Source: Marvinbryantia formatexigens DSM 14469 (GTDB lineage Bacteria > Bacillota > Clostridia > Lachnospirales > Lachnospiraceae). Taken from it: a stretch of DNA of 64,000 nt. The position numbers and the translations under genes were made by a program. This document shows, piece after piece, positions 30,931 to 37,668 of this stretch. The notes below the pieces were generated by a model. The model was not told where the DNA came from. It ran no database searches and saw nothing but the letters and a program-made list of their open reading frames with translations. Positions within the stretch are counted from its first letter, which is position 1; each line of letters opens with the position of its first letter. The stretch covers positions 3,389,001 through 3,453,000 of the forward strand of contig NZ_CP102268.1 of assembly GCF_025148285.1 (NCBI RefSeq). Reading direction: 5' to 3'.

Positions 30931-31106
30931 GAATCCGGCGTTACAGTTCCGTAAGCAGACGATAGGCAGATTTTGCAGGCTTTGCGAGCATAGCGGCAGA
31001 AATTTTGTCCGACCGGTTTTTATGGAGGCAAAATTTCTGCCAATAGGCGGCGCAGCAAAGGCAAAAAATCAACGTGTCTGCTTACGGAACTGTGACAGAC
31101 GGATTC
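30931..31106 (+). repeat. Palindromic dispersed element, copy 1 (before valS)
   Basis: A 176-base near-palindrome. Outer arms GAATCCG/CGGATTC, then an 18-base perfect arm (30943-30960 with 31076-31093). The core holds GGCAGAAATTTTG pairing CAAAATTTCTGCC around GTCCGACCGG(T)5ATGGAGG. A second copy at 37490-37668 lies in inverse orientation with the same core and different but equally paired arms. It sits between the T-box terminator and valS. Confidence 0.85.
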
Positions 31107-31187
31107 GGGCTGGGATTTTCATACAATCTTTCCCCAAATGCTGTGAGACAAAATGCTCCGCCAAACCGTATGAAAAGGAGAATCATC

Positions 31188-33839
31188 ATGAGCAAAGAGC
31201 TTGCAAAAACCTACGACCCGAAGGGGCTGGAGGAGAGACTGTATCAGAAGTGGATGGACAACGGCTACTTCCACGCAAAGGTAAACCCGGACAAGAAACC
31301 GTTCACCATCGTAATGCCGCCGCCCAACGTTACCGGGCAGCTTCACATGGGGCATGCCCTGGACAACACCATGCAGGATATCATCATCCGCTTTAAGCGG
31401 ATGCAGGGCTATGAGGCGCTGTGGCAGCCGGGAACCGACCACGCGGCGATCGCAACCGAGGTAAAGGTAATCGAAAAGCTTAAAGAGCAGGGCATCGACA
31501 AGGACGAGATCGGGCGCGAAGAATTTTTAAAGCATGCCTGGGCGTGGAAGGAAGAGTACGGCTCCCGTATCATCAACCAGCTCAAAAAGCTTGGTTCCTC
31601 CGCAGACTGGGAGCGCGAGCGCTTTACGATGGACGAGGGCTGCTCGAAAGCCGTAGAAGAAGTTTTTGTCAAGCTGTACGAGAAGGGTTACATCTACAAG
31701 GGTTCCCGCATCATCAACTGGTGTCCGGTATGCCAGACCTCGATTTCCGATGCCGAAGTGCTGCATGAGGACCAGGAGGGACACTTCTGGCACATCAACT
31801 ATCCGGTAGTGGGCGAGGAAGGAAAATATGTGGAAATCGCGACCACCCGTCCGGAAACGCTGCTGGGCGATACGGCGGTTGCTGTAAACCCGGAGGATGA
31901 GCGCTACACGGATCTGATAGGGAAAATGCTGGAGCTGCCGCTGACCGGCAGGCAGATTCCGGTGATTGCCGATGCCTATGTAGACAAGGAATTTGGAACC
32001 GGCTGCGTGAAGATTACGCCGGCGCATGACCCGAACGACTTTGAGGTGGGCAAACGCCACAATCTGGAAGAAATCTGCATCATGAACGACGACGCCACCA
32101 TCAATGAGCTGGGCGGAAAGTATGCCGGCATGGACCGCTACGAGGCGCGCAAAGCCATTGTAAAAGACCTCGACGACCTGGGGCTTTTGGTGAAGGTAGT
32201 TCCGCATATGCACGCAGTCGGCACGCATGACCGCTGCAAGACGACGGTGGAGCCGATGGTAAAGCAGCAGTGGTTCGTGCGCATGGACGAAATGGCGAAA
32301 GAGGCAATCAGGGCGCTGGAGGACGGCGAGCTGACCTTTGTGCCGGAGCGTTTTGACAAGACGTACCTGCACTGGCTGGAAAATATCCGCGACTGGTGCA
32401 TTTCCCGCCAGCTCTGGTGGGGACACCGCATCCCGGCGTACTACTGCGACGAGTGCGGGGAGGTTGTGGTGCGCAGAGGCGGCGCGCCGGAAAAATGCCC
32501 GAAATGCGGCTGCACACACTTTACGCAGGATGAGGATACGCTGGATACCTGGTTCTCCTCAGCGCTCTGGCCGTTTTCCACGCTGGGCTGGCCGGATAAA
32601 ACGCCGGAGCTGGAATATTTCTATCCGACCGACGTGCTGGTGACCGGTTATGATATCATCTTCTTCTGGGTAATCCGCATGGTATTCTCCGGGCTTGAGC
32701 AGACCGGGAAAGCGCCGTTCCATCATGTGCTGATCCACGGTCTGGTGCGCGATTCCCAGGGGCGCAAGATGAGCAAATCCCTCGGAAACGGCATCGACCC
32801 GCTGGAGGTAATCGACAAATACGGCGCGGACGCACTCCGTCTGACGCTGATGACCGGCAATGCGCCCGGCAACGATATGCGCTTCTACTGGGAGCGCGTG
32901 GAGGCGAGCAGAAACTTCGCAAACAAAATCTGGAACGCTTCCCGTTTCATCATGATGAATCTGGAAAAAGCGGAAATTCCGGAGCAGATGCCCAAAGAGA
33001 GCCTGACGCAGGCGGATAAGTGGATTCTTTCCAAAGTAAACGCGCTGGCGAAGGACGTCACGGACAACATGGAAAAATTCGAGCTGGGCATCGCGGTGCA
33101 GAAGGTATACGACTTCATCTGGGAGGAATTCTGCGACTGGTATATCGAAATGGTGAAGCCGCGTCTGTACAGCGACACGGATACCACGAAGGCGGCGGCG
33201 CTGTGGACCCTGAAGGCGGTTCTCGGAAACGCGCTGAAGCTGCTGCATCCGTACATGCCGTTTATCACGGAGGAAATCTACTGCACCCTGAATCCGCAGG
33301 AGGAATCCATCATGATTGCTTCCTGGCCGGAGTGGACGGCAGAATGGGATTTTGCGGCGGAAGAGACGGCGGTAGAGGTAATCAAGGAGGCGGTGCGCGC
33401 CATCCGCAACGTGCGCAGCTCCATGAACGTTCCGCCCAGCAGAAAGGCAAAGGTATTCGTGGTTTCGGAAAAAGAAGAAGTGCGCAGCATTTTTGAAGAC
33501 GGAAAAGTATTCTTTGCGACCCTCGGCTATGCGAGCGAGGTCGTTATCCAGGCGGATAAGGCGGGCATCGGCGAGGACGCCGTATCGGCAGTGATTCATG
33601 AGGCGGTGCTTTACATGCCGTTTGCCGAGCTGGTGGATATTGAGAAGGAAATAGAGCGTTTGAAAAAAGAAGAAGAGCGCCTGACGAAGGAGCTTGCGCG
33701 TGTAAACGGTATGCTCGGCAACGAGAAATTTGTAAGCCGGGCTCCGGAGGCAAAAATTGCCGAGGAAAAGGCGAAGCTTGCAAAATACACCGATATGATG
33801 AACCAGGTGCAGGAGCGCCTGGCACATCTGACAAAGTAA
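31188..33839 (+). CDS. valS: Valyl-tRNA synthetase
   Basis: 883 residues, class I synthetase. HIGH-type motif in [14 protein letters not shown] (HMGH at 53-56), editing domain ([20 protein letters not shown]), KMSKS motif in [14 protein letters not shown], and a C-terminal coiled coil ([20 protein letters not shown]). ATG 31188 follows AAAAGGAG by seven bases. Control is by the upstream T-box. Confidence 0.98.
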
Positions 33840-33966
33840 AGGTATTGCGGCGCAGGAACGAAACAGCCTGCGCAGAGGGGAAGGAAAGGTATCGCGGTGC
33901 GCGCCCCGGCAGAATCGGGACAGCCGGCAAAAAAGTGCGGCGCATCACGGCAGGAAAGGAGAAGCT

Positions 33967-36900: not shown

Positions 36901-37455
36901 TATGGGCTCCAGCTTCAGCTTGTGGTATACCTTAACGCCGCTATGGAGCTGGAGAAAAAAGTACATCCGGAAAAAGAGATTGTTCCCGCGGGTATTTTTT
37001 ATTATCATATGCAGGACCCGCTGGTGGAGACGGACGAAGAGCTGACGCCGGAGGAAATCAATAAGAAGCTTTTGCGCCAGCTCCGCCCGGACGGTCTGGT
37101 AAATGAAGACCCGGCGGTATTCGGGGAAATGGATGTGCGGCTGGAAAAATCCTCCGACGTCATTCCGGTGAGCATCAATAAAGACGGGCGGCCGTCGAAG
37201 CTTTCTAAAACGGCGACAGGCGAACAGTTTGCGGCGCTCTCCGGCTTTGTCCACAAAAAGCTGCAGGAGCTCGGCAGCGCCATGATGGAGGGCGAGATTT
37301 CCCCGGTGCCGTACCAGCGGAAGCAGCAGACAGCGTGCGATTACTGTATTTATCGTCCGGTGTGCTGCCTGGATGGAAAAATTCCCGGCACGCATACAAA
37401 GCGGCTGAAAGAATACAGTGCGGAGGATATCTGGAAAAAATTGGCGGAAACATAA
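33967..37455 (+). CDS. addB: Helicase-exonuclease AddAB, subunit AddB
   Basis: 1162 residues. Walker A LGSSGSGKSHYIY at the N terminus and a C-terminal RecB-like nuclease (VKVIDYKSGNTSFDLVALYY). Iron-sulfur cysteines are seen in KFASCAFAHFLQ and CDYCIYRPVCC. With AddA it resects double-strand ends for recombination, the Firmicutes counterpart of RecBCD. A palindromic element lies between it and addA. Confidence 0.95.
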   Translation: MSLRLILGSSGSGKSHYIYSSIIEAAVQSPEKKFLVIVPEQFTMQTQRELVRLHPDGGLLNIDILSFQRLAHRIFEEVGADKRTVLEELGKTLLLRRAASRVQDELKVLKGNLKKMGYLQQMKSMISELTQYDIDSEKMERLLQQAEQKPSLFYKLKDIRLLYESFQEELEGKYITAEETLEALCQVARQSAILKGCVVAIDGFTGFTPVQNKLLRELFSLAEQVYVTVTIRAQEEFYRIRGEHELFYLSKKTIRSLAHTAQEAGCEILPPVVMEWKTLPRFTKSPELGFLEAYLFGGGKAQWTEPAEEPVRSANPHTAEETARSGEAEPECASSGCAISLHTAANPVQEAHFAARTIRALLRQGYRYQDIAVIVGDLPSYSSYIPQVFGEYKIAYFMDSTRTVFSNPLVEFLRAVLDMIQQDFTCASVFRYLRTGLCRIDAQKLDMLENYVLAAGVRGFSRWREPFTRAVDFLDEEQLALCEELRSLIMEPLLPLVSCMRQARTTAREKTEGLHTLLCHYNIQQQLADMEKQFRADGQAELEKEFAGIYAMVIGIFDKLAELLREEALTLQEYTELLEAGFEEARVRLIPPSADRVQVGDLERSRLTDIKVLIFLGLNDGWVPATGAGGGLLSDMERETLMESRVELAPTTRQNSYIQRFYLYLNLTKPRERLYLSCSKATADGSLLRPSYVMRTIGRLFPGLSVHDEDVCESFSSRVETPQNALAYLLEGFWSIRERQPSGEWLELYNWYRRKEDTKKQVQRLVEAAFLTFDESGIGRKAARELYGEVLVNSVSRLEKFASCAFAHFLQYGLRLQEREEYVFRPVDMGRVFHSAIELYSRKVEESGYDWFRIPEEVRDRFIEEAVNEVSAAYGQQILHDSARNEAMIGRMKRIMRRTVWALHRQIQSGHFYPANFEVSFSQAEELEAVNIALSPEEKMRLQGRIDRIDVCEKEEQVYVKVIDYKSGNTSFDLVALYYGLQLQLVVYLNAAMELEKKVHPEKEIVPAGIFYYHMQDPLVETDEELTPEEINKKLLRQLRPDGLVNEDPAVFGEMDVRLEKSSDVIPVSINKDGRPSKLSKTATGEQFAALSGFVHKKLQELGSAMMEGEISPVPYQRKQQTACDYCIYRPVCCLDGKIPGTHTKRLKEYSAEDIWKKLAET

Positions 37456-37489
37456 GCGGCATCTGCAGTTTGTGCAGAATTTTTTGCCG

Positions 37490-37668
37490 GGAATCTGCCC
37501 GCCATCTGTCCGGTCGCAGACACGTTGATTTTTTGATTTTGCTGCGCCGCTTATTGGCAGCAATTTTGCCTCCATAAAAGCGGGTCGGACAAAATTGCTG
37601 CCGCTATGCTCGCAAAATCTGCAAAATCTGCCTATCGTCTGCGCCCCGGACAGATGGCGGCAGATTCC
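37490..37668 (-). repeat. Palindromic dispersed element, copy 2 (between addB and addA)
   Basis: A 179-base near-palindrome in inverse orientation to copy 1. Outer arm GGAATCTGCC..GCCATCTGTCC pairs over about 31 bases with its opposite end (37640-37668). The core hairpin is GGCAGCAATTTTG with CAAAATTGCTGCC, where an A-T pair of copy 1 is replaced by C-G. The central ~135 bases are over 85 percent identical to copy 1 by eye. Confidence 0.85.

Follow-up and report, generated by a model that had tools for sequence, protein, structure and literature searches.

A dispersed family of hairpin elements with a conserved looped core in Marvinbryantia formatexigens and other Lachnospiraceae

The valS and addB–addA regions of Marvinbryantia formatexigens DSM 14469 (genome of 4.58 Mb, coded G000; other genomes have G-numbers and individual loci L-numbers) each harbor one copy of a non-coding hairpin element. 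Both copies lie in the 64,000-nt stretch of contig NZ_CP102268.1 (positions 3,389,001 to 3,453,000) analyzed here, hereafter the window, in which all coordinates below are given unless a locus is named. Copy 1 (30931..31106, + strand) is located between the T-box/terminator of valS and valS itself; the T-box leader upstream of it was matched at 30529..30821 (+) with an E-value of 5e-17, its 83.5 bits falling short of the gathering score of 93. Copy 2 (37490..37668, − strand) occupies the addB–addA intergenic region in the opposite orientation. The gene names valS, addB, and addA were assigned from the translations. The two copies were 87% complementary over 152 nt (30955–31106 against 37491–37642), and both are members of a dispersed family of non-coding hairpins in Lachnospiraceae.

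Both copies folded end to end, copy 1 with −92.7 kcal/mol (z −9.4) and copy 2 with −104 kcal/mol (z −10.7), and 0 of 200 shuffles reached the respective value. An earlier note on this DNA had placed two palindromes at these coordinates and described their folding, and it was right on both counts; the pair change that it reported in the core hairpin was also found (GCAGAAATTTTG/CAAAATTTCTGC in copy 1 and GCAGCAATTTTG/CAAAATTGCTGC in copy 2). The extent of approximately 178 bp that it gave is paired but slightly short, as the pairing signal of the arms continues 35–75 nt from the core. The arms of copy 1 pair best with each other and are clear within 30931..31106, and the fold gave a possible outer limit at 30891..31142 (+, approximately 252 nt) through a pairing of AGCATTT with AAATGCT that is weak for this copy. 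For copy 2 (L006), the outer limit of arm pairing lies at 37459..37698 (−, approximately 240 nt), where GCATCTG pairs with CAGATGC, in line with its arm score.

From the outside inward, the element consists of the arms, an internal loop A, two short helices, an internal loop B, and an apical helix, to which many lineages add a loop C and a tip helix. A covariance model of the core (R1) was built from 29 sequences over 131 positions. It scored the core of copy 1 (30953..31083, +) at 142.8 bits and that of copy 2 (37514..37644, −) at 147.7 bits, each copy being itself among the model-building sequences. In G000, loop A comprises ACGATAGG (30959..30966, +, in copy 1) opposite CAACGTGT (31070..31077, +), as delimited by conservation in the aligned cores, and its letters differ in other lineages. 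Loop B comprises GCGAGCATAGC (30984..30994, +) opposite AATAGGCGGCGCAGC (31042..31056, +) and is conserved in the aligned cores and across genera. Loop C comprises TGTYTGAGC opposite GCGAGTTT. Among the 29 aligned cores, 26 columns were invariant, mostly within or beside loops A and B. The asymmetric internal loops are thus kept across genera while the helices vary in sequence yet still pair. In G221, for example, which had 15 model matches, the inspected copies had loop B in common, mostly also loop C, and looked unrelated in the arms and apical stems. The copies L186 (G221) and L037 (G007) lacked the apical hairpin and retained parts of loops A and B. The right arm of L054 was interrupted by an unrelated short hairpin-like stretch, which lies between loops B and A on the 3′ strand of the element. 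Element length is characteristic of the lineage: six copies of one lineage measured 226–228 nt between clear ends, with a seventh of 272 nt containing an insertion, and another lineage had units of up to 771 nt with two hairpins inside the outer arms.

The core was searched in the own genome and in related genomes, as the earlier note had suggested, which revealed a multicopy family with a patchy presence across Lachnospiraceae. In G000, a BLAST search returned 30 alignment rows, and the core model identified 24 copies, two of them inside the window, when 150 of 1614 first-look candidates were scored; one extra fragment outside the window (L029) contained the 3′ half only. These numbers ruled out a single local duplication as the origin of the window copies. 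The G000 copies share one scaffold with two kinds of apical hairpin, and none of them lacked paired arms: in the first 35 nt from the core, the best partner of each left arm was the right arm of the same copy (24 of 24). The own partner was best in nine of 24 copies at 35–75 nt, and the mean score of own partners was not reached by any of 10000 partner permutations in either of these two bins. At 75–130 nt the signal was weak (own partner best in four of 24, with 603 of 10000 permutations reaching the own mean), and beyond 130 nt it was absent in the 24 copies. This permutation test replaced a column-wise covariation test, for which the arm alignment was out of register.

BLAST matches were found in six of 60 genomes including G000, all from the same genus (five of the seven other congeners and none of the 52 genomes of other genera), and the core model likewise matched six of the eight genus genomes, G000 included. 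Across 200 sampled family genomes, the model reached E ≤ 1e-6 in 15, the own genome included, which corresponded to 14 of 199 genera; as strict filters were used and 16 candidates were scored per genome, these values are lower bounds. A pattern scan of 84,980 species genomes (GTDB) retrieved 49 stretches in 18 assemblies, with titles naming Lachnospiraceae, Blautia, Lachnotalea, Candidatus Lachnoclostridium, Eubacterium, or Eubacteriales. Two of the 49 (L057 and L064) were congener loci already known from G003 and G006, with 100% identity. A search against Rfam left the elements without a match, both in the window (gathering threshold) and in eight loci (E ≤ 1). A phage or plasmid origin was without support at the sensitivity used, as no match was found in viral contigs by exact pattern or in plasmids and phages by blastn with one copy. 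No description of the element was found in the literature consulted, with tables and supplements outside the scope of that search.

At the three sites that species had in common and that were compared, the core changed more slowly than its surroundings. The cores of L041 and L047, which are orthologous loci of two species (87.6% over 7.9 kb of alignment), were identical at 128 of 130 positions (98.5%), compared with 646 of 704 (91.8%) around them. The cores of L011 and L030 agreed at 123 of 131 positions (93.9%) against 75.3, 78.0, and 67.5% for flank pieces; these two loci share helix sequences absent from the other G000 copies, which argues for their common descent, and they show compensated changes both in the arms and in the apical helix. 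For L016 and L033, core identity was 131 of 144 (91.0%) against 84.5, 85.9, and 85.2% in the flanks. Since this element lies in opposite orientations relative to the flanks and its arms are unrelated, the site may reflect an inversion or independent insertions. The comparison left out one more shared locus, the fourth (L018/L036), because it was cut by a contig end.

Mismatch counts distinguished the apical helix from the arms. In a gapped alignment of 73 distinct apical helices, 22 G·U and two A·C mismatches were observed on the strand that carries the loop motifs; the corresponding count was 29 G·U and three A·C in 63 of 83 distinct cores (the other 20 were unparsed and left out), and 40 and six when the region was widened to take in loop C. 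Copies within one lineage are dependent observations in all these counts. The bias is suggestive of a fold of the loop strand as RNA or as single-stranded DNA, and because it lies on one strand, selection of the core as a symmetric cruciform of both strands is less likely. The earlier note had offered a DNA cruciform or an RNA fold; a single-strand fold of the core agrees with the counts, while the two-strand form is disfavored by them. The cruciform as the sole reading had initially been favored by the arm mismatches (132:172, below) and crude core counts, and it was weakened by the apical ratios of 29:3 and 22:2. The same note had held that the covariation exceeds drift and points to selection on a fold, and for the core this is supported by the cross-genus loops, the orthologous cores, and the strand-specific apical wobble.

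The outer arms behaved differently. In 73 copies (24 from G000 and 49 others), 132 G·U and 172 A·C mismatches were counted, and an analysis of 90 copies gave 106 and 126. The 49 others remained from 64 pattern hits after four duplicates, one repeated name, six unparsed copies, and four with short flanks were left out. By distance from the core, the G·U:A·C ratios were 32:17, 45:49, 38:79, 27:42, 14:23, and 3:3, and the A·C excess at 30–75 nt, which was seen in all lineages, could arise from reverse-strand folding or from a mutational asymmetry. In L053, 36 nt of the right arm around loop A matched the reverse complement of the left arm exactly. This match spanned loop A and included a T common to only one of seven siblings; the arm matches of those siblings were 13–26 nt long, and none crossed loop A. 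Arms can also diverge while remaining paired: those of L041 and L047 were identical between the species at 24 and 22 of 34 aligned positions, yet within each species 29 and 30 of the 34 positions paired, the ends being offset by 2 nt. Quasipalindromes are known to be corrected by templating one arm from the other. As the outer arms lack a G·U bias and L053 shows an arm-to-arm copy, we consider that the arms probably remain paired because the hairpin lets one of them be copied from the other, and selection for pairing can act alongside such templating. The arm-by-arm covariation described in the earlier note is therefore real as pairing but, in view of the missing G·U preference and the copying in L053, probably no evidence of selection by itself. 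Short sequences similar to the arm consensus (GGAATCCGGC...) recur in the flanks of L005, L022, and L023 and might point to a smaller palindromic repeat elsewhere in the genome.

Arm-to-arm copying and the missing G·U preference of the outer arms would also be expected of decayed, functionless repeats with a symmetry preserved by templated repair. Such passive palindromes are nevertheless very unlikely as an account of the family, as the core is slow at three orthologous sites and the loops are common to several genera in copies with differing stems.

Both window sites were without the element in seven of seven congeners when 480 nt before valS and 420 nt after addB were inspected by eye. The addB–addA gap measured 295 nt here and 44 nt in the close relative G006; therefore, this genome gained approximately 250 nt or the other genomes lost them. 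Upstream of valS, where copy 1 lies here, G006 (L102) contains a motif twice (GTGCAAAGGTCACGAACAGC ... GAGGTGNACGGTTC) that looks like a different intergenic repeat. The dispersal, the patchy presence, and the empty sites fit a non-autonomous mobile DNA element, in which the bulged single-stranded hairpin would be the substrate of a nuclease or transposase that acts in trans and reads the core, as in REPINs and the ends of IS200/IS605. The strand-specific fold and the lineage-specific unit lengths (approximately 230 to approximately 770 nt) are consistent with this explanation, and back-to-back pairs of copies could be the two ends of one unit. We regard it as rather unlikely, since the core is conserved beyond its flanks at fixed sites, which mobility alone does not need, and the enzyme that it calls for was not found beside the copies. 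The only Y1 transposase matches in G000 were five of equal score and IS200-like size (G000:C1 236397, 2992554, 3077360, 3324142, and 4002835), and the nearest lay approximately 30 kb away from any copy. The relative G006 (78% complete) contains elements and had no Y1 match, which leaves Y1 transposases unsupported as the mobilizer. Among the 14 largest clusters of neighboring open reading frames (ORFs) at L001–L088, no transposase-like or other mobile-element protein recurred that could serve as a local gene partner; several clusters were made by the element itself, and the largest of the others looks like an ABC transporter (eight loci). Inverted copy pairs inspected among the analyzed loci shared no gene inside. 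In G136, a tyrosine recombinase (Pfam Phage_integrase; L178 2917–3885) lies between two inverted copies 2.5 kb apart, probably by chance, and a tyrosine recombinase was rejected as a partner because the other wider pairs inspected hold ordinary genes. Terminal inverted repeats were clear in one lineage (CTGTGCGG...CCGCACAG), diffuse in G000, and different between lineages. Inspection by eye of the lineage with clear ends showed no target site duplication; in the others, the ends were too diffuse. Of the transposase-dependent miniature inverted-repeat transposable element (MITE) suggested in the earlier note, the general mobility thus fits the dispersal and the empty sites, while no transposase was found near the copies examined and no target duplication was seen where the ends are clear.

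Of 15 copy pairs less than 600 nt apart, 13 had a back-to-back arrangement (minus followed by plus) and two pointed in the same direction, and the opposite arrangement did not occur; related copies were counted separately, and 46 of the 49 pattern-scan loci entered one of the searches for this count. No Pfam match was found for the large ORFs that overlap L003 and L013, which thus look spurious, and gene-context counts are therefore rough. The intergenic placement, with many copies between convergent ORFs by such rough counts, and the very stable hairpins would suit a cis-acting mRNA element, such as a terminator, a 3′-end stabilizer, or an RNase III processing site comparable to ERIC and Correia/NEMIS repeats. 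Between co-directional genes, however, the element occurs in both orientations (in the window, copy 1 is sense and copy 2 antisense), copy 1 is located in the valS leader, and a terminator has no need of conserved internal loops. Such a role is distinctly unlikely.

Several known systems resemble the elements. 6S RNA forms a long hairpin of approximately 180 nt with a conserved internal loop, as the elements do. Unlike them, 6S RNA (RF00013) is not dispersed, being matched in 57 of 60 family genomes once each except for two matches in G031, and the elements gave no 6S match in Rfam. REPINs are doublets of repetitive extragenic palindromic (REP) sequences that form hairpins and are mobilized by REP-associated tyrosine transposases (RAYTs), with examples spanning approximately 80 nt (PMC3116915). 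The same text describes dispersed intergenic hairpins with variable paired segments, compensatory changes, and a predicted fold in single-stranded DNA or mRNA, all as in the elements. The outer REP ends of REPINs are conserved and the inside varies, whereas the elements conserve internal loops and vary in the outer arms; their unit is also two to three times longer or more than the REPIN examples given there (PMC3116915), and no RAYT-like gene was found beside any copy. The elements thus work most like REPINs but miss the features that define them. MITEs such as ERIC and Correia are short, non-coding, palindromic, intergenic, multicopy, and gained and lost, like the elements (PMC10969869). In contrast, the elements have a conserved structured core and no inverted ends common to all lineages, and no target duplication or parent insertion sequence was found. 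Palindromic RNA candidates from microbiomes are also structured and occur in gut bacteria; the four described examples are mostly from Bacteroidetes and 80–132 bp long, and 230 of 250 palindromic candidates are predicted terminators (PMC8040213). The elements may be listed among the thousands of candidates of that study.

Our preferred reading, to which we assign a probability of about 0.5, is that of a new dispersed, structured-RNA-like element with a selected single-strand fold, templated arms, and a trans-acting mobilizer. Speaking for it are the multicopy family, the loops kept over differing stems, the apical G·U excess, the slow cores at shared sites, the arm copy in L053, the empty sites, and the back-to-back close pairs. 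The strand carrying ACGATAGG, GCGAGCATAGC, AATAGGCGGCGCAGC, and CAACGTGT would be the one selected to fold, most likely as RNA produced by read-through of neighboring transcription. Its loops would then bind a putative protein, and the long arms would form a double-stranded stem, a possible substrate of RNase III. During DNA synthesis, the folded strand would let one arm template the other, by which arm sequence could drift while pairing persists. The elements would spread, or would once have spread, through a putative mobilizer acting in trans. A more specific version is tentative: a class with a conserved three-loop core that acts when folded from one strand of RNA or DNA and at times occurs as back-to-back pairs, and whose arms are continually rewritten by hairpin-templated copying, such that they covary without selection for arm sequence.

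Several observations weigh against the preferred reading. Beyond 30 nt in the arms, A·C mismatches were approximately twice as frequent as G·U (38:79, 27:42, and 14:23), and if this excess reflects a mutational asymmetry, it could add to the apical bias. Earlier ungapped counts showed little or no bias in the core (G·U:A·C of 21:15 in P3 and 7:15 in P2), and the short helices P2 and P1b were unbiased (2:5 and 7:6). The 6S RNA control, aligned in the same manner for 25 of 30 loci, was mixed, with 49:12 in the closing stem and 11:18 in the terminal stem, where the alignment was poor; a tRNA calibration (seven G·U and one A·C in seven tRNAs) was too small a sample. G·T is a better-tolerated mismatch in DNA, so RNA is not separable from single-stranded DNA by these counts. 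Loop-based detection inflates the apparent loop conservation, a bias that the orthologous pairs, which were also found via the element, reduce only partly. No consistent promoter was found across 12 spacers of close pairs (best scores of 7–10 against shuffle means of 7.4–8.6), and element orientation relative to genes looks mixed by crude ORF calls.

Elsewhere in the window, domain matches at 47967–48259 (+; D1D4-3 with 137 bits and D1D4-1 with 42 bits) probably mark a group II intron, and an S10-Clostridia ribosomal protein leader was matched at 12955–13046 (+).

The elements offer a natural case in which paired covariation, a standard sign of RNA structure, may come from DNA templating in the arms and from selection in the core. 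A tally of G·U and A·C mismatches in each helix may separate templating from selection and could be applied to other candidate structured RNAs. For the Lachnospiraceae, a dominant gut family, the result is an element family that gave no Rfam match and is present in approximately one in 14 sampled genera (14 of 199), and its core may represent a new RNA class within dispersed palindromic elements.

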